Positions 24,018-46,156 of a stretch of 52,640 nt of DNA are shown here, one piece after another. This DNA is from Chromera velia (taxonomy: Eukaryota > Sar > Chromeraceae), in assembly GCA_018398765.1 (NCBI GenBank), contig JAHBMJ010000249.1, positions 1 through 52,640 on the forward strand, written 5' to 3'. Every line of letters begins with the position of its first letter. The stretch's first letter is position 1. Under the pieces are notes generated by a model, which saw only the letters and a program-made list of their open reading frames with translations, was not told where the DNA came from and searched no databases. Made by a program: the position numbers and the translations under genes.

Positions 24018-27000
24018 TCAGTCCAGCTCCATCATTTCCTTCTCTCCTTTGGTCTCACTATCGATGCACCCATTCCCCCCCCTTTCTTGCGTTCTCACCT
24101 CCCCTTCCTTGTCGGACTCCTTGATGTCGGACATCGTGAATGCTCCGTTTCTATTCCCACTCGCACTCTCAATGTCGTCAAAGAGTCCCGTCACAGATGC
24201 CGTCTCGGACACACAGTCGGCTTCTGCCCCTGTCTCCTTCTCGTTCTTCTCCCCCTGTTGAGGAACCTCACTCAGACTCTCCTCGTGCGGCTGGGCTTCC
24301 TGAATAGATGGGGTCGTCTTCGCAGAGGAATTCTCCTCCGCGGCTTTCTTTGATGCCTTTTCCTTTTCCTGCTTGGCCTTCTGCTCAGCCTGTTTCTGCC
24401 TCATTTCCTTGTCCTGCTCTTCCAGCTCTTCTTCGGAGAAGACTAGGAGGTGCACTATCTCACTAATCCCTTCCCTGCAATTAAGCATTCATTCGGTCAG
24501 AGAAAGAAGAAGTCACCTGTATTTTGAGCTTGAGTTGAGGAAGTGAGGAGGGCTTTTCGAACTCTTTCACCCCACTGCATTTTTTCTTTTCCTGTCAATT
24601 TTGCCTGAAAGGCATTCATTTGCTCGTGCGTGCGTCAACCCGCCTCCCAAGGTCGCAGATTCGTGTTTTCCTTTTTGTCTGCGTGCCTGTGAGCACTTCG
24701 TTTAGCTGGATTGATTTCTGTCTGTCTGTCTGAGACTATGAACCTGGTTCAGCATAACTGCGAGCCCACCTGACTGACTGACTTAATTTCTCCAGTCTCC
24801 TCAGAAAGGTCCCAAATTCTCAGAACGTCGAAGAGACCCGCCTTCCTCCCTGCCTCCCTTCCCGACTTAGTCTTCAGAAGCTGAGTCACAGAAGAGAGCA
24901 AAGACCTCCGGGCCTCCAGAGATACGGGGGGCCCACAGGCCTCCCGCTGCAGAGAGAAGAGACAAACGGAATTGGCAGACAAACAGACACTGACACAGAC
25001 AGACAGGCTATATGTTTCTTCTTCTCCCTTCTTTTCTTCATGAACACAACAGACAAAAAGAAAGAAAGAACAAAGACAAAAGAACAACACAGACAGACAG
25101 ACAGACGGAAAGGGAAGACAGACAGATGCATGCGAGGCCCCTTCCATATTGAGGGATGGAAAGGGAAAGGACAGACCGCGAGCCTCAAGAGACACGCGAG
25201 CGCGACACAAGGAAGGGGTGTGCTCTCGAAAGGAATCTGCGAACCTAGCACGAAAAGAACTCAAAGATCAAAACAGAACAGGCAGAGTGACTCTGGCAGC
25301 AGAACGGAAAGGAAGGATTAGAGAAAGGAAAGGAAGGACAAGAGAAAGGTAAAACATAGACAAAGAGAGTCAGACAGGGAAAAAAAAAACAGAAGTAGGG
25401 GAGGGAAGGTCGAGCGAGAACGAACTTACAAGAATGAAGGGGTGTACACTCGTCAAGTCCTCCTTATCCTCTTCAATCACCTCCACCCGCATACTGCCGG
25501 CATTCTCGTCTGAACAACCCGCGCCCTGCCCAACCATCCCCTCTCGTATGTGCGTCTTCGCTCTGAGTCTTCTTCTCTTATCCCCAGAAGGTGGCAGCAG
25601 AGCAGCACCAATCTGACACACAACCCCGGCAGCCTCAGAGACCTCCTCCCCCTCCACAACTCCCATCGCCTCATGACACTCCGCATCCGCACACAGATTC
25701 CAGAGAAGCTGCAGACATGCCTCGCGTCTTGGCAGCGTCACTCGGGCAGGATTGTTTTGTGGCGCTCGCAGGAAGCAAAGCAGCGAAGAGAGCAGAGCCC
25801 CGCCTCTGGCGCTCAACTCGTGTCTGCCCTTCTTGGAGGCGCTGATGTTCACTAGCAAGTGGACCGCGTGAATGTACTTGTCAGCCATCTCTCTGCAACA
25901 TGAATCACGTATGTATGAGTGTTGGAAGACTTCGGCCACAAGCCGAACAGACTCACTCGGCTTGTTCTGGCACCCGCCCATCTGCGCTCTCCTCGATGAT
26001 GTCTGTGCGTGTGATTCTCTCTCTCCCCCCCCCTCTCCCTCTCGCATTCACGAGTCAGTCTGGGCGATGGACTAGTTCGTTGCCCTCATTATGAATAACA
26101 AGAAAAGTATGTGTGCACACTTAATTCCTCTGGCCACCCAGATAGATACCTGTCAGAAGTCGGCTCAATGGGGCGGAGACACAAGTCGCAGATCAAGTTC
26201 AGAAACATTCCCTTCAATGCCTCGTCTTTTTCGGTCAGCTGCATCAGGGGGGAGGGATAGAAGCTACATCAGTTGCTTTCCAAGCAGAAATCATTTATGT
26301 CTTTTCAGCAGCGTCGGCGCAATCATTGCTTGGCTTTGCCAAACGTCGAGCAAGGGGCGATTCGGGAAGGGAAAAGAAATAAGGACATTTTTTACCTTTT
26401 TGGCGTGCGAGGCAGACGGAGCAGGATCGCAGGGCAAGAAAGGAAAGGACGATGAGAGATACTGCAAAGAGACGCCGAGGAAAAGATACGGACTCGCTCT
26501 CTCGGACTGAGAATTGGCCGAATTCAGACTTTTGAGCTTGCCTGCAATAGAGCCGCCTTCCCCGTGTCCAGCTGAGTCAGGTTAGTGAGCAGCATGAGAT
26601 GAAGGTGCTCAAAGTTTTGGTTGGCCGTCTTCCGTTTTGCCTGTTGACGGAGGGAGTCCATCACTCTGGCTACTCCTCGAGACTTGAGCATCCTTTCACC
26701 TGCAGTGCAGACACAACACAAGAGCATTTGAGGCAGGCAAAGTGGACACACACACGTGCAAACTCAACTGAAAGAAGGCAGAGATGACCAACACAGTTGG
26801 TGTGACTCTGCCAAGTTGATCATAGTCTTCAGGGACGTCTTGGCAATCTCCACGTTCTCATCGTCAACAGCTCTGAGGAGGCTCTTGATGGCTGTTTTCT
26901 CGTTCTCTTCCTTCTTCAGGAAATCGAGCAGAACGGACTGTTGGGAAAATGCAAGAACGGCATCAAACGCCTGGCTTCTGAGGTCCTCTCTTTGTGCTGA

Positions 27001-27051: not shown

Positions 27052-27342
27052 CGCGTTGACAATGAAATCAGATTTATGAATCGAGTCGGGAAAAAAGGAC
27101 AGGCAAAGTCAAAAGGTACGCGTCTGGTCTTTCAGTAGGAGTCAGATACATGCTTGTCTGACAAGAAGCTATAGCTTAACACAAAGATCACTGTCTGAAT
27201 CATGCAGTTGTTAATGCGTGCACGAACCCGATTCTATTGTGCATGAAATCCGATTATGGTACGTCTTGCTGGCCGGGGCCCTGAGCTATACGTTCGCGTA
27301 TAGGGCCCGGCACGGATATATGGCAGCCGCCCGCCGGCCAAG
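27052..27342. other. Spacer between the HGH1-like start and the Helitron-like element
   Basis: This is the short upstream region of the HGH1-like gene. It contains a strong hairpin at 27273-27310, listed separately. No gene is seen. Confidence 0.5.
27273..27310. other. Strong GC hairpin with TTCG loop
   Basis: An outer stem (CCGGGGCCC paired with GGGCCCGG, one bulged G) and an inner stem (TATACG paired with CGTATA, TTCG loop) are separated by a 5-base bulge. It lies 30-70 bases before the first ATG of the Helitron-like reading frame. Helitron-type elements carry terminal hairpins, so it may mark an element end, but no CTRR or TC terminus could be proven. Confidence 0.6.
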
Positions 27343-28800
27343 ATGCCGGGGCTCTTTCTGGGCCAAAGGACCCCCCAAAAAATTATTATTAATATTATCA
27401 CAGACAGTGAGGATGAGATAATTCCGTCTGCAAAAGTTCCGTCTGCACTTCATACTCTGTGCTGCTGCAGTTGCGAGATGAGTTTCGCTCATTGCGTCGA
27501 CGACAACGCTGTGACTTTCCCCGTACATACCCGTACACCAACTGTGGAAGAGTATGCCGCCGCGGTGAAGGAGTGTTGCGACTTAGACTTGCCAAATGCC
27601 TACAGAAGGTTCCCTTACGCATGTTGCGGGACACAGGTTGGGTCTGGACTGCGAGTCTCTATCTTAGCTTTCTCGAAACTAGCTTCGGGCATCACAGAGC
27701 CGAAACACAGGGAAGCCACGGCTAAGGTAAAAGAAGCAGTGCAGTCCGCAATGGCTAAAACCTGCACACATTGTGGCCTTCATTCTTTCCTCTGCGTTGA
27801 AAATCGGTGTAGAAAGTATGCAAAGCGCGGGTGCAGTTACTCAATTGAGGCAGAAGAGAAGTCAGTCTGAGATGTCTTCCAGTGGGAAAAGTAAAAAACA
27901 GTTGTCAAAAAAAGAAATTACCGGCATGCTGGGAGAGCAGATCCTGACCACGAGACCAACACAGGAAGTGATAGAGAGGATAGCGAAAGTGATGAAGACG
28001 GAAAGGCAGAGGAAGATGAAATAGAAGCACTAAAGGAGCTGAGAGTCAACAGTTTCTGCTGGCTATCGAATCTTTTCCTGTCTGTTGTCGTCCAGAATGC
28101 TCCATGGGTGTTCGACTACCCCAAAAATTTCTCCGCCTTGAACGGACTGGTCCTCTATTGCAATAGGTTGAGGACGGCCAACGACGACCCCGTGCCTCCT
28201 TCCCAATTTCTTCCTCTTCAAGGTGAGAACGATGCATACTGGCACTGCACGGCCCATCAATGACTTCTTGATTGTTTAAAATGTTTTCAAAAGCTCCTCT
28301 TGTTAGTCTTTGATCTCAATCCATGCACTAAAAGCTGTTTACGTGATTCAGACTACCTTCGACATCCAGATACAAGACTCTGGCGTCTTCTTCCCAGCTC
28401 TAGCTGCCTTTGTATTTACGTCTATTGCATATAATTCTCAAAATATTTTAATGCGTGCTTGACGTAAATGCGATTGCTCCATGCTGCAGGAGATGCAATA
28501 ACAGAAAATTATCTCCTGGTCTGCCATGAATATGCCGAAGCCATTAGTCACAGACGTTAACCACCGAACGTGTTAGTTCTTCATTGAAATGGCGACCCTC
28601 ATATGAAGGAAGCCTACGCTCCCCATGAAACCGTCCTGGAAGTGCTCCAACCGGATTGGGCACAGGCCATCACACCGATTGAAGCAGCACTTGTCAGCAA
28701 GGTCGGTGCACAGGAACAAGCGACTGACTGCGATGCCCTAGGGCGATACCAGCGACTAACTCCTAGTTTTGCGGGCGCATCTCGTACCTACCTTCCATAG
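27343..28800 (+). pseudogene. Helitron-like protein, Cys-rich N-terminal part
   Basis: From ATG 27343 the frame encodes Cys-rich segments (CCCSCEMSFAHC, CTHCGLHSFLC, RCRKYAKRGC) that look zinc-binding. It meets TGA at 27868 and TAA at 27892, then continues in the same frame with an acidic stretch and NAPWVFDYPKNF. It leaves through a GT donor at 28223 and resumes in frame after the acceptor at 28489 with GDAITENYLLVCHEYAE. Further stops occur at 28558 and 28585. The next part, ITPIEAALVSKVG, resembles the pre-Rep region of Helitron proteins and ends at TAG 28798. The frame is conserved across the stops, so I treat this as one inactivated gene. Confidence 0.55.
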
Positions 28801-29639
28801 ATGTTGGCATGCAGAGGGGGGTAAATGAAAAAACTGCTGACATGCTTTTGTGTGTGTTTTCATATCAATGCCAACTTCCTCGGACCAGTCAAATACTCGA
28901 AACTTCATTTCTGCAGGTTCGCATGGCTGCCTAAATTTATAAAATGACTCCGGCAGGTATCCGTGTGAGCCGGCAGAGCAAACTGCGGAGCTATCATCAC
29001 ATCCAAAGCACCATGACGTTCTTTCCACAAGACATCAAATTTTTTTTTTGAATCTAGTAGACGTCAATGCGATCTACGAGTGCTTGGAGGCACATGAGCG
29101 AACTCTCCCTCGACCTCTCAGCTCCCTCTGAGGTACCATGAGGATCTTGTACAAAGGCAAAAAGGATGACCTGGCTTCTCAGTTGAGACATTCCCTTTCT
29201 TTTGATCCCTAAATCGTCCTGTAAGTAATCCGTTGGAAGTATAAATACGATCATCGGTACATTGCAGAAGGGTGGTCAGTTGACGAAGAGGGAATTCAAG
29301 AGATGGAGGAGTTTATGACTCATGCGGAGGCAAAGGGCTCCCACTAGATCATGATTAAACTGGGGCTTGTAGAGGAAGAAAAAAATGAGGAAGAAGAAGC
29401 AGAAATTAATGGGCGGCAGAGCCACGCAGGTTCGACACCCGCAAACTTGTAACCTGCCCAGCATGCTTCTCAGACAAGCTTGAAAGGACGACCAACGTCC
29501 ACTTCCCATGCTCGGGGTCAATGTGGTGTGCACGTTGGATCATAGAGAGCTTCTCGGCAGTACCGACCCGCCTCTCAGACGTGTGCTTCCAAAAAACACT
29601 GACCGTCGCAGAAATATACAACGATAGAGACTCACACAG
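28801..29639 (+). other. Poorly resolved internal part of the Helitron-like element
   Basis: Only short reading frames are found here. Candidate acceptors (TTCTGCAG near 28917 and CATTGCAG near 29268) suggest one or more introns. A Glu-rich fragment (near 29270-29400) could be a short exon. I cannot define joins. Confidence 0.3.
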
Positions 29640-32053
29640 ATACCGATGATCCCCCTCCCCTTTCCGCTTCGGAAGATGAAGACGAAAATGATGATTCCCC
29701 TGAAGCTCCCCTTTGCGCTTCAGAAGATGAGGATGGAGAGGAAGAACCGCCTTCTCTCGTGAATTCAGACGATGAAGAGTCGGACACAGAGACAGGGTCT
29801 GTATCAAAGCTGCTCGTTGTTCGCTGGAAAGTCTCTGGCATGGTAGACCGTGGCTTTTGCGGCGTTCCATCACACCAATGTACTCAACACGCCATAAAAC
29901 GCGAAGCAGCAGTCGCGCGAGCAGCCATAGAAGAAGCAACACGCAGAGAAACAGGGAGGCAAACCCACCGTCCCCCCTCCTCTGCAGCGTTCCGTCGCGC
30001 AGGTCTATATTCACGCCCTCGGGCAACGGACCCGCCTGAACCCACCCGAGAAGAGAAAGAAAACATAGAGGAGAAAACAAAACTGCCTGAGGAGTATGGG
30101 ACCTTAATCATGCCCCCCAGCAGCCATGAACCACTAGATACCTACACGTCCTCGTGGTTGCTCGTGGATGCCTACCCAGAAGTGTTCTTGTATGGTATTA
30201 GCGGTTTTAAGGATGTAGGAAATAAGTGAAAAAATATGGCCGTCCCGGAATGTGAATACTTCCCCCCTCTTAGTCTGCAGGCCCGCGCCCGCATCAAACT
30301 AATGAATGTCCGACAGAGTGCAGCCCGATGCCCATCTTTCCCCTTCTCAGTCCTTTGCATCTTACAAACTCAGTAAGCCCACTGTGAGTCTTATCTTGCA
30401 TTCTTGCATGGGTGGCAAGAGACGGAAATCATCAACACGCTCGATACAAAGGAAATAGAACAGCTTGCAGAGGCGGTCAAAGCACAACAAGGCAGTCAGT
30501 CAAGCACGCAGAGCCATCTGCCGAAAAAGCTGCAGAAGCTGTTGAACTCCCTGACTACGGCCTCCAAAAAAGTGATGGGAACTGTTATAGTGCTTGGTTG
30601 AATGTCATGGCGTTCATTGATGCGATCGATGATCGTGTACGCAGGACCCCTTCTCTTCTTCCATACACATAACCCGAACGAGTTTCAGACGGCGTTGGTG
30701 TGGAGGCGTGTCAATCAATTTTTCAGATTCGAGTTTCCTCATAAGTTGACAACGGAAAACCAGCAGGTTACCACAGAATCCAATCCTGTCGCGGTCGCCC
30801 AGTTTTTCGAAGACCGCATGCAGTCCCTCTTTCGATTGTTTCTAAGACTCCCAGCCGTTGCCTCAGCCCCTATGCATAAGAGGCTGGTGCATCCCGGAGC
30901 TCGATGTTCTTACACAGCAGCCCCGTGTTCAGGTGACTGTCCTCCCAGTGATGCCCATCACAATCCCGTCACTGTTAGAGTTTAAGGTTCCACGCCTGCC
31001 GCAGCGCATCCCTGCCCATCATCCCCTATCGAATCCTGCACCGAGCAGTCAGACAACCATATCTCCTCATCTGTCCCCGTTAAAAATCCTACGGCTCCCA
31101 GAAAAACTCTTGGTAGCCTCCGGAACGGTCTGAAGGCAACGTTGAAGGAACTTGAAGAGGAGGTGGAGACGGAAGGATAGGATCCCGCCGGGGTCGGGGT
31201 GTTAGACCCACTGGAGGCAGTCTTCTCCACCGTTGAGACGGGGACAAAAGGTAACCCGCACGCCCACCATCCATTGTGGGCACGTCGTCTGCTTCCAAAC
31301 CATGAGCTGATTCAATGCCTCGATGAAGAACCACCATTCCGCAAGGAAGTAGAGGGTTTTATCTCAACCACAGTGCAGGAAGACTTCTGCCAAATAGCAG
31401 AGTTTCCTCCGGTTTGTCCTATAGATTTTGGTCTGACTGCTTTGTCATCTCCAGAAAGCCGAGAGCAAAGGCAGGCATTGCAAGATTGGGCGAAGGCGAT
31501 AGAGATGCCGGAGGGGGTTTTAAAGTCAATCCTTGAAGCTCTTGATTACGAGGAAGCCGGAAAACTACTGATTACGTGGGCACACACAGAGAATGAGCGA
31601 GATACTGTGGCATTAGACATGGAAGAAGATCCCCTCACTCTGGAAGTAGAAGATATGGGGGGCTTCAATATTGTTAATCAAAGGGGGGCTGTCGGACTAA
31701 CAGGTGCACGTCTTCTTCACGCTGCTAGAAAGTTTGTTCTCCACAAGATTACTCACACACCAACGTGTTTCAAAACCGTTTGGAGCCGCCTTAAGAACAT
31801 CTGCCGCTTCGGATTGCGAAAGGCTTTGATTGAGTTTACAGAGTGGAAGGTGAAAGAAAGGATGGTAATTGAACGCAAGTATGGCTGGTCGACAGGTTAT
31901 AATCATTGGATCCTTCTTGCCCATATCCACAACCATGACCTCAAGCCCCTCCTTGGTCGAGCAGAGCGCGTAAATGCAACTATCGCTTACGGGTGTAACT
32001 ACTCCAGCAAAGCCGAGCTCTCCTACTTCAACTTTTTGATCTTTTTCGCTCAT
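29640..32053 (+). pseudogene. Helitron-like N domain and HUH Rep endonuclease
   Basis: One reading frame runs through this segment and is broken by stops at 30227, about 30371, 30599, 30983 and about 31178. It encodes an acidic stretch, then DAYPEVFLYGISGF, which matches the Helitron LFPyGxGG region. The Helitron-like N domain at 30602 contains YAGPLLFFHTHNPNEF and ESNPVAVAQFFEDRM. The Rep nuclease follows. NPHAHHPLW at about 31253-31276 supplies the His-x-His of a HUH nuclease. CFKTVWSRLKNICRFGLRK is the Helitron C...CRFG segment, and HNHDLKPLL is the conserved NHD region. Two tyrosines spaced Y-x3-Y-x2-K (31988 and 32000) match the catalytic tyrosines. The segment ends at a GTAAGC donor in phase 0. 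Confidence 0.75.
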
Positions 32054-32276
32054 GTAAGCACAGAAAGATACAAGCACGACAACACTCTTGACCTTCAAGT
32101 CCTTTGACTTTCTCACCATGCAACCCTCTGCCGTATAATTAAAATGATATTTCCTTTTGTTCGATTTCTCGTCTGAAAATTAAGATCATGAAAGACGCTG
32201 CCATGCACCACATGCAGGTATTAACGACAGATCCAAACATACTTGATTGCTCTGTTTTATGCATGTTTTCATGCAG

Positions 32277-34908
32277 GCGCGATCCTGGATGCTCGCCAAA
32301 GATGACAAGGAGTCTGACGAGGTAGAAGCAAAGTGGTTCATGAACGCGCTCCACAATGCCCTTCGGTTAAAACAGCAGATGAGTGCACCGATGGCGTGTC
32401 ATTTGCTCCTAAACTGGACTCCCGACACAAATCTTTCCCCCAAAATGAATCGAAGAGACCGATTTTCATAGTATACTTTTTCTACGCTTTATGTCAGCAA
32501 CGTCCTTTATGCGCTTCATTCCTTGCTGAGGGTGGACACCAAAAAATCGGACGCTGTGTCAAAGCCTGCTTCGGCGTCCCCTGCCCCGTCAGCACCTCTT
32601 TTCACCGCTGACAGCTTACCTCAATGGAGGGAAACCTTTCTGTTCCAGTTTACCGACTTGTCTCCAGTGTTTGAAGCCCCCAACTCAGAAGCAATGGATG
32701 ACCGCAGTCATGGCGATGCAGGACGAACCCCGCGTCGACCATATTCTGCACCGCCTCCTCGGCGCCGCAGCTTTGACACTGCTTTTTCCGAAGAAGCAGC
32801 GTCTGAGGCAGAAGCCTCCTTAGATGAAACCTCCGAGATGCAGCTGACATCAAATCTAACTCCAAGGTCTTGTATCCCTCCAGTGGATACGACAGCTGGT
32901 TCTCACTTAGAGTCAGCCATTCAACAAGATACTTTTCCTATAGTTGACCGCCTCTCCCGTCGACTCTGTTATGGAGAATCGCTTCCAACAGACTCTCCGA
33001 TGCTAATGACCCGTCGGGTGAGATTCATAGACTCATTTGAGGTCTGCGATCGGCTGTAAGAGGACAGCCATAGCCCTGTTCATGTCGAATGGGCCAAACT
33101 CTTGCAAGAAGATCGGGCAGAGGAGACAGACTTTGGTATTGTTAATGATTCGGGAGCACATACAGAAGACCGACCTGGCAATAGACAGGGAGAAGAGGAA
33201 GAAGAACAAGAAGAACTTCAAAAAGAAGAAGAAAAAGAAGAAGAAGCCAAAGAAGGGGTAGAAAGAGCTAACGGGGAGGCTCAGGACAAGGCCGAGCTAG
33301 AGGGAGAAGCTCCTATTTCTGAGGAACACCTGTCCTCATGGGAGTTTTTCAACCCCGATAATGTACCTAAGTGGGCATCTAGAAGGGCTCTTCGCCTTCG
33401 GAGGGGAGAGCTTTTCCTGCATGACCGTTTCAGTCTCTATTATGCCTGCCCGCCCGCTCTCTCCTCGTTCTCCCTATTCAAGTTTTGTATGTGGGTCAAA
33501 ATCGTTCTTGCACCAAGACGTGCTTCTGATGGAGTCGCGTTTGAGCGCTCGTTGTCTCATCAAAAGAAAACATTGACCACAGACCCTGAGGGAGATACAC
33601 TAAAACGCGGTTTCGTCCCTATTCCCCCAAAGGAAGCAGATGACGGTCTTGGATGGGAATTTGGAGGATGGTACATAGAGTTTGAGAGGGAAAGAAGGGG
33701 TGCTTCCCACCACGGCAAAGCCGAATTGAGACTTCTGGACCGACCCCACATTTCTAACCTCAACGGACTCTCTTTACGGTCCGATAGCTGCACTGGTGCC
33801 TTAGACGCCGCTTCCCTCCTGGGACTCTTCCTTTTTACCCCTCACTACAATTTCCGTCAGCTTACCAGAAAGGTCCTCGAAGCATCACCCATTGCAACTA
33901 CGTACCAAGAGGAGCTGTAGCAAGACCTGCCTCCGCACTCTGACAGCATCTTTCTTGACAAGACACCAACTCTTGCACTGCAGCCAGAATTCAGAGGTAC
34001 TTTCATTGTAGGTGCAGTAGAGCAATTCTTTGGTTCGCCTTTATCTGACCACTGGCAGCTTTTGGTTCACAAAAGTTGCACCCGCCTCCATGAGGAGATA
34101 CAAAACCTCTCCTCTCCGCTGGTGCTCCTCTATGAACGTTACTTCTACTATGCTAACCTGTTGTCATTGCAGCGACGTCACTCCAAAATCGAAGCCGACA
34201 TTGCAGACAGAAAAAAAAAAGAAGATCACGCTGCAGTACACGACCCTTACGGTCCTCAACGGCAGGCAATCAAAGACAACTGTCGGGGAGGGCTGAGTAG
34301 AGATGATGAAGGAACCTATAAAGTTTCCTTCCAAAAATTTGAACAGAAAGGCCCATGCAGGCCGCAAGCCCTCCTCAAATCCCTCATTGCACCCACCCAA
34401 GGCTCGTCTTCAGCAGTGAGCACCGGTATCATCACCGAGACAATGGACACCCTGAAGTCCCGCATCGCTGCAATCGAAAAAAGGTCTGAACAGCAGCAGT
34501 CTGACAAAAAGAAGCCACGCACCAATCCCTTTCTCCTCTCAGAGGACACTTCGGTGACGTCGATGCACGACTTTCTTTACAAGCTCTCGCAAACAAAACT
34601 CGATTTCAAAGTGGCCGAACAAAAACGTATCGCACAACTGAACAACAAGTTGAACACGTTACAGCAACCGTCCGATGCTTCAGCTTCTTCCCAACCTCCA
34701 CCCCCTCGAACAGGGTCCGACAAGTCTGCATCTATCTGGAGCAGCGCCGCATATCCAAACGCTCAGCCACAGCATCCTGTCTTCGACAAAGACTTTCTGA
34801 AGAAATTGATTGAAGACGAGATCGATAAGTACACGACAAAGCTGAACGATCTCCAACGTCTTGCCGTTCGTATCTGCTTTGAAGGCCTTCTCAGTGCAGA
34901 TGACGAAG
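32277..34908 (+). pseudogene. Helitron-like protein, linker between Rep and helicase
   Basis: After the acceptor at 32276 one frame runs for about 2.6 kb with only three stops (TAG 32469, TAA 33057, TAG 33918) and no frameshift. The first part, ALRLKQQMSAPMACHLLL, corresponds to the post-Rep helix of Helitron proteins. A Ser/Pro-rich region and a Glu/Lys-rich coiled stretch (33190-33260) follow, then an unrecognised domain at 33300-33917. The last part contains coiled-coil-like sequence and ends with LNDLQRLAVRICFEGLL, which resembles the LNxxQ motif at the start of PIF1-like helicases. The exon ends at GAC GAA G before GTTAGT. Confidence 0.6.
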
Positions 34909-35274
34909 GTTAGTTTTCGTGTTTACATACCGTTTCTGTTTTTTTCGGTTTTGAAATTCTAGTATATCATCTTTGGCTTCCTTTAGAGCCTTTCACACGT
35001 CGGCATCAAAACGTTCTATATCATTCAGACAGCTTTCAAAAACTTGTAACAACAATGTGTAAGATCAGCTCAGGACCCTGTTTTCTTTCTTTACAAGTCT
35101 CTTACACTTGCATCTGCAGCATACGTCATCTGAACTATGTTTACTACAACAGGCATCAAGACGCTATTATATTATCCATCATCGTGCAAACCTTAGACAG
35201 TCCATCTCACTTTTAACAGATCGTGCATATCTCTAACACCCGAGTTTTTTATGCTTTACACTCCCTTCTTGCAG

Positions 35275-37255
35275 AGCTGGATAGCATTTGGGCATTCATT
35301 AGAGGTGAGGGAGGGACCGGGAAATCCGAAGTCATTCACACTATCTTGGACGTCCTCAAGAGCCTCAGCCTCGCCCACTTATGTCGCACATCAGCACCGA
35401 CTGGAATTGTAAGTATTGCTGTGGAGGGGCGCACCACTGCCTCTCTTTTCCACAAATACCACCAAAACGATGCGACGCTCGGACAAGTTCCAAGGCAAAA
35501 GAAGCAGCTTGAGGAAAATATGGTGAATGTGAAGCTGTTGTTCCTTGACAAGTTGTCAATGCTTGGGCTTGAGTCCCTCGGGCTTTGCTCCAATCGGATA
35601 ATGATGGGTAAGGGGAACACACAAGTGTTTAGGGGCATACGTGTGGTGTTCGTTGGAGATCTTTTCCAGCTGCCAGCTGTCCTTAAGATACCCCTGTATA
35701 CCTGCTCGCTGAAGAGCCCCGACGTGCTCAAAGAAAACCGTCCTGGAGGCATATACGCCCGCGCCCATTTAGAAACTGGCTTCAAAATTTTTAACCACCA
35801 GATCCATCATGCAGTTATCCTGAAGGAACACATGCGTGCTCTGGGCGATCCTGTTTTCTCTGCATTGTTAAAGCGGCTGTACGACAGCGAGATGACACAG
35901 GCTAATATCACCCTTCTTCAGTCCTTCATTCTGGATAATAATTTTTTCGATCGGATGGATGAAGAACAGGCAGCGTTATTCAAGACTGCTCCTATCATCA
36001 TGCAGTCCAACGACGTCCGCTTGGCCGTGACACTTCAGCTTGCACTCAAACATGCTGCAAAACTCGATGCCATGGTGTATATTTCCACCACCTGGGTTGG
36101 TCATACTGGGCGATCCTTCACAACGGCTGAGATCGCACAGCTTCTCCGCGAGAGTGAGACCCACTACCATGGCTTTCCAGGCATCGGTTTGTACTTCATT
36201 GGAATGCGCTGCATGATCTACTACAACCAGTCAGCGCCACTTACTGTTGCTAATGGCCAAAAAGGTGACATCGTTGACATCTTCCCCTCCGAGCAAGATC
36301 TCGATATAAAGCCAGTGGAGACCATAATTTTAGGTCCGCTCTGTATATATGTGTATGTCTTTTATTCCTTCAATGAAGAATCGACTTCATACAGCTTTTC
36401 ATATTCTAAGTTTTGCAATTTTTTGATACACGTCGATCATCCTTCGAGTCAAAGTGTAGCGCCTGCATGCATAATAACAGACCCATTTGAATTTCAGCAT
36501 TGTTTTCAAAGTACAAGCACCGTATGTGAAAACACCACTTAATTCGAAAACAGGAACTCACTATCAAAATTTTGAAACAGATGCATAAGAACAATAAATT
36601 GAATCATACCTTCTTCTTACCTGAATGTAGGAATTCGTGTGAAAGCAAAGTTTTGTAAAGCGCCCCTCATAGGTGTTGATGTGCGCTCTCATGTTCCTTT
36701 GTCGATTGCGGATCAACTCTCCGCTAAGTACAGATCAGATCCGACCCCCACCTCAACGCGTTCTGCTTCTTCAACCGATACCTCTCAAGCAATACGGTCT
36801 CAGGCACCATCTGCGAATCTAGGCACAACAAATCGCAGAAAACTGGTTCAGGTCACCCTACCAGTTATGATGAGAAAGCCTACCCTGTCAAACGAAAGGC
36901 ATATTCAGATGGCAAAATCTATTTCTTCCGTAGAGGCTTGTGCGTTGTGCCCCTCTACAGTTTTACTTACTACAAGGGAGAAGGAGCGTCTCTCGATGCG
37001 GCAATTTTGGATCTCCTGCCCACCCAAAGGTTAAAACCAGGCCGCGTGTGGGTGGCTTGGTATGTGATGCTTTCAAAGCTCACTAAACGTCGTGGCCTTA
37101 GCATTCTTCACCAATTCTTACCGTCAAATGCTTTGAGAGACTTGGATGCCTTTCTGCGCGAACTCCGTCCCCCAGAAGCTCTCATCACCATGATAAAACG
37201 GATTGAGAAGATTGCCAAAGCCACCGTCAGAAAGTTTCGTGCTTATGCACACTAA
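35275..37255 (+). pseudogene. PIF1-like helicase domain of the Helitron-like element
   Basis: Exon 35275-36333 is fully open. Walker A GEGGTGKS is at 35304-35327. Walker B reads FLDKLSML, where DE is expected, so the catalytic Glu is Lys (codon 35550-35552). Motif III VFVGDLFQLPAV and the NGQKGDIVDI segment are present. A GT donor at 36334 and an acceptor at 36630 join in phase to a second exon. That exon has IRVKAKFCKAPLIGVDV and then probably shifts frame near 36870, because the conserved C-terminal motifs YSFTYYKGEGASLDAAILD and WVAWYVMLSKLTKRRGLSIL are in another frame, ending at 37255. Helicases of this type unwind DNA during Helitron rolling-circle transposition; this copy is probably inactive. 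Confidence 0.8.
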
Positions 37256-37898
37256 CCATGTGCCTAACATTGTTTCTACACATATTATTATTATACTTTA
37301 TAGCCAGTATAGAACAATTTCATTATATTGAATTTAATCATTATTCTTTTTAAACTCGGTTTTCTACAAAAAGATTTAATATAGATTTGTTTTAAACAAT
37401 TAGTGTTACCTTAGAAATTGCGTTACTTCAAACAGCTGTAACGTATGTCCTAACCGTCTCCGCACTGTGCTAGTAGGCGGCAGCGCTGTGTTCAGTGGAA
37501 GAGCAGTCCTTCTACTCGAAATCTCACATGCCTGTATCTCAGTACGCATGTATAGATAGACGGATGCATGCCAATTCGATGCCAAATACACGTACGGCGC
37601 GAAAAATCAATAAATCTCGGCATGGCTCAAACACCACCCCGTGAACGATCGGTCGCGCGCACAATTTAAAATCGTCCTGGCACAAGCCACAGTACCAATG
37701 CGCACACTCTCCATCCTGACATACCAGACAAGCAACCGCAATTCCAACACACAACATCACGCGCGACCCCCCCCTTCGGTCTCGCCAGTGTCTTTTTTCT
37801 ATCGCTTCTGGCTCTGTGTGCTACGTAAAAGAGACGTTCGATCGAAGATCAATAGGACAAAAAGAATCGAAATAAGGAAGATACACATATAAACATAT
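37256..37898. other. Spacer between Helitron-like element and RT gene
   Basis: The first part (37256-37420) is AT-rich and may hold the 3' end of the Helitron-like element or of the minus-strand RT element. No coding region or clear terminal hairpin with CTRR was found. Confidence 0.4.
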
Positions 37899-40271
<2,373 letters not shown>

Positions 40272-40559
40272 TCTCTTCTTACTGAGAAGTGACAACAGAA
40301 GCGAGCGGAAAACAAAGATTGCTGTGTTCGTAGGGCCGGAGATTGTACCTCTTCCCCCCCTATTCCCGGTAGATAGACTCCCCCCCCCACCCCCAAACCC
40401 CCCCACAGCAGATAAACAAGCAACACGGGAGAACGCAGTCCCTCCTCGGCTTACCGTCGCCACCGTAATCCTCCTCCTAACCGTAAGGAATTCCAACAGC
40501 TTGTCCGAGCAGATCGAAACACCTCTACGTCCGGAAGCCAACCTTTCCGACCTCCTCAA

Positions 40560-41461
40560 AGCCCCATCCCCCCAATATTAATTCTCATTCAAAAAAATCT
40601 TTTAAATAACATTCATGTTAAATTATGCATGTTTTTTTCGTTGAAATTTTCGATTGATTCTAATTTAATAACGATTGTAAAAAAATCATAATTCTTCATA
40701 TTTTTATGAAAAATGATTATATTACATTGTGTGATAATGCATGTCTTGGCTAGCCAAAACCCAAATGATGCTAATATGCTATAATATACGCTAGTAGGCC
40801 CACTTTGGGGCCGGTTTTGACCACAATAATTATAATCACAATCAATGAAGGCTGAAAAAAAATATTAAGTAATCAAGTATACAAATGACTTAAAAAAGAC
40901 GCATCATGTTATACCATGCATATTAAAATTTTAATTCTCAAAAAATATATATAGCCGTCCGGGAGCTTAGAGCTCCAACAGGGGTTAGACATTCTCTAAC
41001 TAACTAATAAGTAACACAGTATTCCTTGTAAGATAGTAGTTTTTACATACATACCTGTAACTACCTATAACTGAAATTTGATTCCAAATTTTTTAATTGT
41101 AGACTTTGATCTAAATATATGATGATTGAGGTTTTTATTATGCATGCCGCATCCCCGTGTATGAGGAGCAGATCTCGCCTAGTCTGTTAAAAAGTTCCGG
41201 TTCGTCCTATCTGTTCTAAATCTAAGAACACTGCTCATTGATCACTTTTATTGTGGCTTATTTCTTAAGTGGCGATAGAGTAGGACTCGGAAAACAACGA
41301 AAAGAGGGGGGAGACAGGGCAAAAACTTTCTAAAAGTTTGTCCCCTTGGCAAAGGCTACCCTTTGACGGCGGAGAACAACTTCAAAGAGACCCTTCCGAT
41401 TAATTTACCCCTTATTTTCTCAACCTTCTTTTCTTCCTTTCTTTTGATACGCTTGCCCCCT
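40560..41461. other. AT-rich spacer between two retroelements
   Basis: Low-GC sequence without coding potential separates the 5' end of the RT ORF from the 3' end of the next retroelement, both on the minus strand. It includes homopolymer-rich stretches and ATATAT words. No repeat ends were identified. Confidence 0.45.
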
Positions 41462-41588
41462 TTTCTTTTTTTTTTTTCCTCCTTGTTTGTATACAAAGAA
41501 TCAATCATAAAAGGATTACTTAGTTTGCACCCTCCAAGTCGAAAGATCCAGAGAACGCTGCGACCTCCCTACTGAGAAGGCACTTAGG

Positions 41589-42774
41589 CTAGAAAGGCCC
41601 TCTGGTTCCCCTCCTGCTGTGAATTGAACAGAGAAGATTTGTGGCAACAAAACGCTGTAATGTGTAGGAAAGAACTTTATAATACTGGTCCATCAGCCTT
41701 GTTTGCACTGCCTCGTCTCCCTCTCCTCCTCTCACTCTTCTGGCCCCCAACTTCGCCATCTCTTTTAAAAAACGAATTGTCCCCTCTCCTGGTCTCCCAT
41801 ATGTCTCAAACACAAGAGGAACAAACTGAAATCCGATTTTATGACAGATCTCACCGTACCTGTCGTTTTTGACCTTCTCTATCGCCTTTGCTGCCAACTC
41901 TGCTGTTTTTGCAAATCTTCGCAGGCGGTTGGCATCAATTGAGAATGGATGGGTCACTGCGACGTCTTCTAGTACGGTGTCTCCTGATGGGAGACCTACA
42001 AGGAAATCGGAATGTTTCTGTCTCTCATTGACGAAACGGGTAGGAGTAGACAAGCCTAGCTGTCCGAAGGTTGGCTCCCTTGTTACATAGCAATGACAGA
42101 GCCCCTGCAAAAGAGAGCAGAATGCATCTTTCATCTGTTCATGTCTCCACCATACACACACCCTCGTGCCACAAGTCTGTACATGCTAGCCTTCATGGTC
42201 CAGCGTGGCCCCACAAGCACAGATCGGGTTCCGTTTGATTTCTGGGATGGGAAGACCAAAATGGAGACGAACGGCGGTGGTGAAGAGCGTGGGGGAAATT
42301 TTTGTCCATCCAGGGACGGCATCACAGTGAGCCAAGCTGAGGCCCCTGTACCCGAACAGGACTTCAAACGTGCCTTCTCTGGAGGGGACAGCATATTCAG
42401 AAGTTGTTCTCTACGAACAAGGTGGAGGGTTTCAATCATCAAGTGCTGCATCTCCCCCCTCTTATGAATTAGGAAATCATCAATTCTCTCCCCCCACTCA
42501 CTTTGCAACACCTGGGGAATATGGTTCTGTCCGAGTTCCCTCTGCACCCCCCCTCTGCAGTCTGTATATGCCTGTGCCACTCTTTTTACCCAATGCAGGC
42601 CGGCAAAGTCCGATCGTGTTGGCGTTGCAAAACCTTGATCGGTAAGCCTGCTTCTGACTGCGGCGAGGGTTTGTGCACCGCAGCCTACTAGCGCTGCCGG
42701 TACGATATGATGGAAGAAAGGGATTCCTAACCCCCCTGGCACAACGAGAGATAGATCTGCTCCTTCTTTTGGGT
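41589..42774 (-). pseudogene. LINE C-terminal zinc motif and RLE-like endonuclease domain
   Basis: On the minus strand, GGLGIPFFHHIVPAALVG follows the RT thumb. GASAWLTVMPSLDG is a segment conserved in this retroelement class. After a frame change near 42230, NPICACGATLDHEG and HVQTC form a C-x-C...H...C zinc motif, interrupted by TAG at 42188-42186. The next part reads HSDFLVGLPSGDTVLEDVAV, then KAIEKVKNDRYGEI and FQFVPLVFETYGRPGEG. The spacing of D, D-V and K matches the PD-(D/E)XK-like nuclease found at the C-terminus of RLE-type LINEs. The domain ends at the stop at 41589. Frameshifts near 42775 and 42230 show that this copy is inactive. Confidence 0.7.
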
Positions 42775-43790
42775 TCATTCTTCTGGGGTCAGACGCATAG
42801 TACTACGGGCAAAAGAGTCCCCCAACTCCTTATTCGCCCACTCCCAGACGTCAGTGTGCAGTCTGTCTGCCATCACTCGGGCCAAGTAGACGAGTTTGGG
42901 GAAGATGCAGTACCTGAAGAGCAGACTGCAGCCCGGGGGGTCCCCATACCCTTCCACCAGCTTTCCAAGCTTGGTGGCCTCCCCCAACTTCTTTTCAAAC
43001 AGTCTGTTAACAAATGTGTTTCCCCCTCCTGCTGCCCCCATCAGTTTGTAGCCCTCTGTCGAAACCTCAAGTCCCGGGGGACGTTGTTGCAGAATCTCCC
43101 TCTCCGTTTTTCCCCTCCAACTAAAAGAGAAGGCTGCGCTCTTATCTTTGCCTAGATTAAGCGTCAAGCCGTATTCTCCTAAAATTTTGATACAATCTGA
43201 CCACGCAGAGGTCAGACAATCAGCAGAGCTGGAAGGAAAAATGAGGGAGAGGTCATCCATATATGTATCTATAAAGCATCCTACCCTCCCGTGCTTCTCG
43301 TGCAGCCTCTTTTATAACTTTTTTAGTACCGGTTTTAAGCCAAGACAAAAAAGAAGCGGTCCTGCCACATCTCCTTGCTGTATCCCCTCTTGACTCAAGA
43401 ACGTGCGCAGTGTGCCTTTCTGATCATGAAAGAAGATGGGGACAGAGGTGCCATATCAGAGGGAAAAGAAACGATAGAGCTTAGGGAAATGCTCCCGTAA
43501 TTGATCTATCGCTTTCTGTCTATCACACGTGTTGAACGCATTGTTTGTATCTATTTGAAGAAGGATGGAGTTAGGACAGAACTGCAAGTAGGTTTGGACG
43601 GTTCAAAAAATTTTATCTGCCCCTGCGCTAGTTCTGACCGCATACTGAAGAGCACCGAGGTACTCCTCAAACTTCTCCCCGTACTCAATCAAGATAACCT
43701 TGGTCACCTATCTTTGGAGCACGTCCCCGATGGTGATTGGTTTTACTTTATCCCCTTTTGTATCCTTATTAAGGGCAAAAGACCTCCCAC
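42775..43790 (-). pseudogene. LINE reverse transcriptase domain
   Basis: On the minus strand one frame contains ALNKDTKGDKVKPITIGDVL (RT motif 1), then LLQIDTNNAFNTCDR (motif A, 43551-43531), EGIQQGDVAGPLLFCL (motif B), TYMDDLSLIF (motif C, YMDD at 43263-43252), GLTLNLGKDKSAAF (motif D) and YKLMGAAGGG (motif E). In-frame stops occur between these blocks, including a TAG in motif 1, two TGAs and TAA at 43314-43312. The frame itself is preserved to 42775. It is a clear RT of the LINE class, inactivated mainly by nonsense codons. Confidence 0.8.
43783..43790. repeat. Left 8-bp target site duplication
   Basis: CCTCCCAC directly precedes the left inverted terminal repeat of the hAT-like element and recurs at 44816-44823 directly after its right end. 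Confidence 0.8.
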
Positions 43791-44815
43791 CCTAGTTACA
43801 TGATGGCCAGGTAATTACCGGGTAACTGGTTACCTGGCCGGGCTAGACCAATTTTTTAACAATGGCCAGGTTACCGGTTTACCGGCCATATAATTAAAAA
43901 AAAAAACAAAAATGAAAATCTAGAAAAAAAAATTAAAAAAAAATATAGAAAAAAAAATTATAGAAAAAAAATTAAAAGAAAATCTGGCCGCATTCGAAAG
44001 ACGCGGAAACTTTTAAATCCTAAAACTGTTTTTCTTTCACGCATAAAACTCATATGCATACACAATAAGTAAATAACATGCATGAAAATCGATGAAACAC
44101 ATTCATGCGGCATAAAAGCACACACACATGCACAAAACACGCGTGAAACACATGCACAGTCAACTCGACGCGATAGCTGTATCTGAACAAAAACCAGTTG
44201 AGGGATTTTGATCCATCAACTGATTTGTGCAGATACTTTCTATCTAGCGCCTCTTCTCAGACTCTTCTTGGCATTGACGATAGCCCGAGGCTGAGGCTAG
44301 ACAAAATCGATGACTTCCTCCCCTCCCCCTCTTCTGACGCCCGCGTGAACGTTGTTTGCCCACGTCTCTGGAGACAACATCCATCCAGCAGAGTGGAAGG
44401 GGCTGTGGCCTTACTCTGTGTGAACAGTTTGCCTTTCGACATCTTGAAACTTCTAAGTTTGGCTTCTTTGGGGAACAACTGCTCAATCAAGAGCAAAACC
44501 AACGTTTCAACAACACAGGGTCGCGACGTTTCCACATAAGAAAGTGACTAACCTTTACATCACTGAACGATCACATTCAATTGCGACAGGAGACTGCATA
44601 CAGGCGTGCACGGGTATCGCAAGCATGCTTGACGCGCCGGGCGCGGTCGCGGCGGCCCCCATTACGCCAAGGCCGCGCAGCGGCCACACGGACATCGATC
44701 GGGCCGCGGCGCGGGCCCGCGGTGCCGCCGCGACTCGGCCGGCCAGGTTACCGGCCAACCTGGTAACCACCCCCCTATTTCTGGCTGACTACCAAGTTAC
44801 CAGGATGTACCTAGG
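43791..44815. mobile_element. Non-autonomous hAT-like DNA transposon inserted in the LINE
   Basis: The 1,025-bp insertion is flanked by the perfect 8-bp repeat CCTCCCAC (43783-43790 and 44816-44823), the target duplication length of hAT elements. Its ends are imperfect inverted repeats: CCTAGTTACATGATGG at the left and CCTAGGTACATCCTGG as the reverse complement of the right, 13 of 16 matching. Subterminal GGCCAGGT, GGTTACC and CCGGCC words recur at both ends, typical of transposase-binding repeats. The interior has an A-rich block (43893-43975) and a GC-rich block (44630-44760). No transposase was recognised, although short ORFs occur at 44198-44539. Removing the insert and one repeat copy restores a continuous LINE reading frame across the site. 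Confidence 0.8.
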
Positions 44816-44823
44816 CCTCCCAC
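44816..44823. repeat. Right 8-bp target site duplication
   Basis: CCTCCCAC here matches the copy at 43783-43790. The base two positions before each copy is also shared (G), with one mismatch between. Confidence 0.8.
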
Positions 44824-45340
44824 TTGCTAGCAAGCGGAAGAGGGACGGAGGGGCATTGCCCGCTGTAAGGCACTGTACCACCATGAAAAGAGCACACGAT
44901 CCTGCCCCCCCCCTTTAATCCGTCACCAGGGAGAAAGAAGCAGATGTGTTCGTAGCACCACCCTGAAATGCCCTGTGCAGAGCCACAGGCGGCTGAGCGA
45001 GCTGCTTGGAGGAGGGAGTCTAGTGTGAGCTCTAGCCGGGGAGGGTCTGCAGGAAGGGGCTTGGTCTCATATCGGGTCCTGTGAGGGGGGTGAAGTTCTT
45101 TCAGCTTGCGGTATGTTTTTATGGTTGGCGTTGCGATGCCCAGGGAGCCTAGGCGGGAGACAGCTTTCGAGAGCGCCCCATCTTTGATGGGGGACTCGAC
45201 ATGGCGGCACATGTTGTCTTTTATGGTTTGCTTTGACGGTTTTTTTCCTTTCCTCTTCTCCAGTTGCTTTTCTCTCATTTGAACAATATCCAATCTCAGT
45301 GATGAGATCAGAACTTCAAAATCCCGCCTCTAGAAGGCTG
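44824..45340 (-). pseudogene. LINE N-terminal pre-RT region
   Basis: On the minus strand, ALSKAVSRLGSLGIATPTIK, then LKELHPP and GSAQGISGWCYEHI match the segment found just upstream of the RT in this LINE class (a helical region, then LHP, then a GpsGw motif before the fingers). Toward the insertion the frame must shift once, near the codons for FHGGTVPYSGQC. The next frame reads LFRLLASGR up to the hAT-like element and continues on its far side as SFALNKD. No clear ATG start is defined; an in-frame ATG lies at 45278. Confidence 0.65.
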
Positions 45341-46156
45341 AGATTTGGTGTCTCCTGGCTGCGAGGGATGCGTTCCCCCCTCTCCTGTCGACCCTGAGGA
45401 AGAAGGACGGAAAATAGAAGAGCACTTTCCACCCCTGCTCCGCAACTGCAAGGTCATCACTTTGGATTCTCTGGGTGCACTCTTCTAAGATGGCGAGCAG
45501 TGCAGGGTGGAGGGTTGCACTGATGTGTTTATTGGTGTTTATTGGTTAGGATGTCAAGGTTGTCGGGGGCTTCTGCTTCTAGGTCTACGGAATTCCAAAA
45601 CTTCCATTTTTCCTCCCACTCTTCGATGGTTACGTCTGGCTCTTCTTCTTCCCCGTTTGCCCTGTCTCCCTCTCTTTTTCCTCCTCCCCCCCCTTCTAAT
45701 ATTATTGTTTTCTTCAGTGAAACCTCTAAATTTTGCCTTCAATCCATTTGTTTCGGTACAGATTTTGGTCTCAAGAATGTCTTACTGGGCCCCGGCATGC
45801 CACTGGAGCCTGTGAAAGTGGCATCCTGCATAATATATGAATAATAACTATTATAATAACTTCGACCACGCATTTTCTTGAGGGACAAGTTGAGGCACTA
45901 TGAGGCACTTAATAATCTGATGGACCATGCAGTCATATGCAGTCTGATTTCAAAGAGAATGAAGGACAAGACAAGACAAAACACGTCGTACCATCACGTG
46001 AACTTGGTGAGCACGCAGACCTTGCATAGTCTGTCTGGTGGTATGAAGAGACGGTTTATGCAGGAGGTCTGGTGTCAACTGTTTCCTGTTTAACCTCTGT
46101 GCGCTTGAGGTCCCCGTCTCCGTGTTTGCTTTTGATTACTTCTTGTGCCTGGCTCA
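45341..46156. other. Spacer upstream of the FtsH gene
   Basis: No supported gene. It may include the 5' end of the LINE (minus strand) and the promoter and 5' UTR of FtsH. A short AT-rich stretch lies at 45825-45860. Confidence 0.4.

Follow-up and report, generated by a model that had tools for sequence, protein, structure and literature searches.

The window, by which we mean the whole stretch of DNA analysed (52,640 nucleotides, the entire contig C248), comes from Chromera velia, a photosynthetic alga related to the parasitic apicomplexans. Open frames on its forward strand encode an HUH motif, paired tyrosines and a PIF1 helicase in Helitron order. The signatures on which the original prediction relied are all in place, as PHAHH (31256), AYGCNYSSK (31985) and a PIF1 Walker A motif (35304), and an HUH and two-tyrosine Rep followed by a PIF1-type helicase is the combination that defines the Helitron superfamily.

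We searched the genome (177.8 Mb in 4040 contigs) with individual exons. The Rep exon recovered a copy in C3938 (hereafter A; 70% identical) and pieces in C3795 (hereafter B; 59% and 62%). The helicase exon recovered A (56%), B (50–53%), C3751 (86%) and a fragment in C2763 (83–84%), so the homologous copies that the original prediction proposed to look for do exist. A and B share the gene of the window at about 50–70% protein identity and are 92–93% identical to each other across their main blocks, and C3751 is a shorter relative of the window copy (93% identical). A search for relatives in viral contigs returned 40 pattern stretches and no relatives.

Domains, introns and decay of the Rep-helicase gene

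Comparison with these copies gave the following gene model.

27460..28222, + strand: exon 1, Cys-rich N-terminal region, frame broken (alignment to A)
28223..28489, + strand: intron 1, GT-AG (acceptor ambiguous in A)
28490..28701, + strand: exon 2 (comparison with A)
28702..28916, + strand: intron 2, GT-AG (equivalent place in A and B)
28917..32053, + strand: exon 3, with the region of the DUF6570 of A, Helitron_like_N (30311–30844), HUH (31256) and paired tyrosines (31985)
32054..32276, + strand: intron 3, GT-AG (acceptor lost in B)
32277..34908, + strand: exon 4, long linker with the conserved domain 33300–33917
34909..35274, + strand: intron 4, GT-AG (kept in C3751)
35275..36333, + strand: exon 5, PIF1-like helicase, Walker A at 35304
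36334..36630, + strand: intron 5, GT-AG (kept in C3751)
36631..37255, + strand: exon 6, C-terminal region, frame broken (alignment to A)

The Pfam match to PIF1 is strong in the window (5.5e-14), and a search of solved structures with the helicase piece matched PIF1 helicases. Helitron_like_N is marginal in the window, where one frame scored 20.1 bits (cut-off 28.9) and another search gave 28.4 bits, or 36.8 bits with the neighbours included. It is clear in A (41.6 bits, 2e-10), which also has DUF6570 (8.1e-8) and PIF1 (3.3e-10) above their cut-offs; the profile check suggested at the outset thus returned the predicted domain. The DUF6570 profile did not match the window, and its region there was assigned through alignment to A only. 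The single solved-structure match for the Rep piece of A (E 1.8) was rejected as not credible. No endonuclease was matched in a Pfam scan of the C-terminal pieces of the window and A.

Both the Cys-rich N-terminal module and the unusually long linker between Rep and helicase had been predicted. The former aligns to A. The latter, put at about 880 codons, measures 878 codons in the window and about 873 in A, and 337–341 codons or so in four other Helitrons of the genome (L003, L004, L007 and L008). The “unrecognised domain” that had been placed at 33300–33917 can now be described as a segment conserved in the protein (62% identity to A), with third codon positions changing fastest. Its resemblance to the equivalent place in another Helitron of the genome (40 columns, hhalign E 0.003, probability 10.5%) is suggestive only. 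An AlphaFold model of this middle domain from a single sequence had a mean pLDDT of 34.9.

Across five blocks aligned between the window and A, identity was 0.64–0.74 at first, 0.77–0.85 at second and 0.24–0.38 at third codon positions. Divergence was concentrated at third positions in every block (5/5), including 33300–33917, so the two copies share an ancestry under purifying selection at the protein level. The introns as delimited are 0.39–0.46 identical between the window and A, which is near-random.

As judged from their boundaries and positions, the interruptions of the Rep-helicase gene appear to be spliceosomal introns. All four introns originally predicted have GT-AG ends and are matched by GT-AG introns in A, but the count fell short by one, as the fifth (28702–28916) had been overlooked. 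The donor of intron 5 in A was read separately from the other intron ends. A and B have one further intron, absent from the window. It could be argued that, in a gene that no longer functions, the GT-AG gaps are inserted DNA or degraded coding sequence and not spliceosomal introns, given that the window copy is a pseudogene and that B has lost one intron acceptor. We consider this improbable, because five interruptions lie at matching places of the protein in two lineages, with GT-AG ends in both and intervening sequence only 39–46% identical, and because C3751 retains introns 4 and 5. The retention of introns in C3751 also indicates that, with the gaps read as introns, the copies spread as DNA and not via spliced RNA.

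The window copy has eight in-frame stops within 30098–34910, five of which (30227, 30374, 31178, 32469 and 33918) are inside blocks aligned to A, and at least three frame shifts relative to A. A itself has an in-frame stop and a frame change, and stops occur in B and C3751; none of the copies inspected (the window copy, A, B, C3751 and the fragment in C2763) is intact. A and B differ by 3.4–6.5% per segment (exon differences 183/138/155 at codon positions 1/2/3), and the window and C3751 by 2.7–7.2%. Neither pair has a third-position excess or a clear difference between exons and introns, indicating that these copies decayed after separating. The differences between C3938 and C3795 (L013–L016) are mostly transitions and are enriched at CpG and CpA/TpG sites, which would fit a loss of methylated or edited cytosines.

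Ends of the family and other Helitrons of the genome

The copies have ends in common, and the corresponding features of the window are as follows.

27344..27354, + strand: probable 5′ end, TGCCGGGGCTC, agreeing with the family repeat at 10 of 11 positions
45785..45797, + strand: CTGGGCCCCGGCA, the asymmetric inverted repeat at the 3′ end (family 5′ end, reverse-complemented)
45798..45823, + strand: 3′ hairpin, 7-bp stem TGCCACT/AGTGGCA

The family 5′ end, TGCCGGGGCCCAGGGCCTCGG, has 175 matches in the genome with up to three mismatches (83 forward, 92 reverse), compared with none forward and one reverse for the reversed-pattern control. The 3′ pattern, CTTACTGGGCCCCGGCATGCC, has 91 matches with up to two mismatches (44 and 47; control 0 and 0), and the window matches it exactly at 45781–45801. 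Among 100 of the 175 5′ ends and the 91 3′ ends, 48 pairs lie within 20 kb; 45 of these are on the same strand and correctly ordered, and three are not. The ordered pairs span 283 to 17,254 bp (median 2,944), with some ends counted in two pairs.

Family ends begin with TGCC and finish with TGCA. A 13-bp asymmetric inverted repeat starts at position 1 of the 5′ end. Its reverse complement forms the 3′ repeat, placed 33 bp before the 3′ end and directly followed by a hairpin. The last 46 bases of the window element and A differ at one position. In the 3′ hairpin of the window, a stem pair is changed on both sides relative to the subfamily with TGCCGC/GCGGCA. The putative 5′ hairpin of the family, which would include the repeat, has an 8-bp stem (z −2.1 and −2.4 versus shuffles); neither the window’s own 5′ hairpin (z 0.96) nor either of the two 3′ hairpins tested (z 0.79 and −0.17) folds more stably than shuffled sequence.

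Four matches to 10 of the 11 bases of the family repeat occur in the window versus 0.43 expected. The 5′ end at 27344 is probable only, because similarity hardly continues beyond it and the window copy lacks the leader, about 1.3 kb long, of A. That leader contains a 169-amino-acid Cys-rich frame (L013:4086–4592, C3938:20086–20592), absent from the window copy, with a weak match to zf-CGNR (7.6e-4, below cut-off). A long palindrome at 27271–27343 adjoins the probable 5′ end and is another candidate for it. It resembles sequence beside a 283-bp family element in C412 and is perhaps the end of another mobile element.

In A, the 3′ end lies 17.25 kb past the 5′ end, at 36789; an end at C3938:33835, where similarity between A and B stops, was thereby ruled out. 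B has no 3′ end within two mismatches. To look for gene capture, a 2.0-kb piece from the tail of A (C3938:33840–35850) was compared with the genome; it is unique there except for 72 bases at 81%, so no parent gene was found. One shorter family member (L080, C812:2002–6001) contains 3.2 tandem copies of a 705-bp unit; DINE-1-like elements also have central repeats.

The base preceding the 5′ end is A in 29 of 47 copies, and T follows the 3′ ends examined, although this T may itself be element sequence. We looked for an empty site of the 283-bp C412 element, and its joined flanks matched only pieces of the flanks, with no spanning site.

The same genome has at least two other types of element bearing Helitron_like_N and a second type with DUF6570. 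Legible Rep frames occur at six other Helitron_like_N matches (L001–L004, L007 and L008), whose motifs we take to be Helitron1-like; DUF6570 was not matched in seven scanned pieces of L001–L003. An element in C3436 (L093, C3436:37701–43000) combines DUF6570 with Helitron_like_N and is apparently also interrupted by introns. Its Rep is homologous to that of A (BLASTP 4e-12, 26% identity; profile comparison 4.8e-7).

Canonical Helitron1 elements have 5′-TC and CTRR-3′ ends, a single 3′ hairpin and an A/T target. The family has in common with them the HUH/two-tyrosine Rep, the PIF1 helicase and the rolling-circle mechanism that these would imply, and differs from them in its asymmetric inverted repeats and in the putative hairpin at its 5′ end. 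An A before and a T after the ends also resembles the Helitron1 target, and elements with presumably Helitron1-like motifs are present in the genome, so the family might be a canonical Helitron1 that has merely diverged. This is very unlikely. The ends are TGCC...TGCA rather than 5′-TC and CTRR-3′, with an inverted repeat at both ends. Moreover, the Rep is like that of the C3436 lineage (4e-12), and its resemblance to the Helitron1-like set is not convincing (0.5% probability and E 0.13 in hhalign).

Extent of the element and nested repeats

The element was originally delimited at 27343–37255, of which 37255 is only the end of the coding region; the element continues to 45830 and encloses two repeats.

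27344..45830, + strand: whole element including two nested repeats (exact 3′ family pattern; join in C3751; 5′ limit probable)
37401..40573, − strand: nested repeat 1, not part of the Helitron (absent from C3751; 676-amino-acid open frame)
41119..45697, − strand: nested repeat 2, foreign to the Helitron and with a weak resemblance to reverse transcriptases (absent from C3751)

In C3751, family ends lie at 70653 (5′) and 66377 (3′). This copy aligns to window positions 34653–37400, 40574–41034, 41024–41118 and 45698–45835 at 89–96%. Thus, the helicase is joined to the 3′ end, and 37401–40573 and 41119–45697 are insertions absent from C3751. After subtraction of the two nested repeats, the net length of the element is about 10.7 kb. 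The idea that the 3′ end at 45830 belongs to another element than the Rep-helicase gene, whose own element would stop near 37255, is hardly credible despite the 8.5 kb of mostly foreign repeat between them, given that C3751 joins the helicase region and the 3′ end without the repeats at 89–96% identity and that this 3′ end also closes A, at a distance of 17.25 kb from the 5′ end there.

Among the matches listed, nested repeat 1 has at least 37 matched pieces elsewhere at 91–96% and nested repeat 2 at least six at 90–92%; these counts draw on 44 listed matches, including the window itself, and on 40 scored of 916 first-look candidates. The open frames of nested repeat 1 (676 and 215 amino acids) had no Pfam match, and this stretch is probably another mobile element. 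Nested repeat 2 matched RVT_1 below the cut-off (E 0.003), and a stretch within it at 43.8–44.8 kb is missing from a match in C995. Just upstream of the element, 24752–26047 (− strand) probably holds a host gene, to which DUF383 and DUF384 match weakly, and an AP2-domain gene lies elsewhere in the window.

Comparison with known rolling-circle transposons

We conclude with high confidence that the window element, judged by its ends and domains, is a degraded rolling-circle DNA transposon of the Helitron2 type. The family is a new one of a known kind, not a new kind, and relatives sharing its unusual ends are dispersed over the genome. When active, the element would have had its gene spliced and would have moved by nicking and strand transfer, possibly with a role for the hairpin, and internally deleted elements with the same ends would borrow the enzyme in trans. 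Later, the window copy gained its stops and frame changes and took in the two other mobile repeats.

A literature search pairing “Helitron” with “Chromera velia” found no paper, and no title on chromerid Helitrons stood among the paper titles listed. The analysis gives the ends, partner elements and gene model of a rolling-circle transposon in Chromera velia, in a family that programs seeking canonical Helitron ends would miss. The presence of several Helitron types in one unicellular genome should also help in studying the evolution of non-canonical ends.

Like Helentrons, the family has subterminal inverted repeats, a 3′ palindrome and shorter partners, some with internal tandem repeats; it differs in that no C-terminal endonuclease was found in the window or A and no TT target was seen (PMC4067079). 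The proto-Helentron of Phytophthora infestans is similarly large (about 14 kb), encodes a Rep-helicase without an endonuclease and inserts between A and T, as the family may also do, but its ends are 5′TT and 3′CTAG, described as Helitron-like, and its ORF is intronless (PMC4067079).

Helitron2 elements are described with asymmetric inverted repeats, a hairpin at the 5′ end and, at the 3′ end, a repeat that precedes a hairpin (Bao and Jurka 2013, PMC3627910; PMC5148889). The family shares with them a 5′ end that starts with T, a 5′ asymmetric inverted repeat that may also form a hairpin, a 3′ repeat immediately upstream of the 3′ hairpin, a single Rep-helicase without an endonuclease, and shorter elements with the same ends (PMC3627910). 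Where Helitron2 has a repeat of 8–15 bp at 0–2 bp from a T-start end, the family has 13 bp at position 1, and the window has 10 of 11 bases at its probable end. Fusarium Helitron2 subgroups start with TGCCT, like the family ends (PMC5148889). The 3′ repeat, reported at about 20–30 bp from the end and at 20–51 bp in Fusarium, lies at 33 bp in the family, slightly beyond the former distance and with the hairpin after it as expected (PMC3627910; PMC5148889). A is favoured before the family 5′ end, whereas TTTT is reported for Chlamydomonas (PMC3627910). The long linker and the introns of the Rep-helicase gene are further differences, although introns are already known from genes of such elements, since the Fanzor genes carried by Chlamydomonas Helitron2 elements are described with 5 or 10 exons (PMC3627910). 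Tentatively, and with more doubt than belief, we suggest that the Helitron2-type ends, the DUF6570-bearing Rep, the long linker with its own conserved domain and the preference for A at insertion might together define a separate Helitron lineage in alveolate algae, rich in introns and intermediate between Helitron2 and proto-Helentron types.
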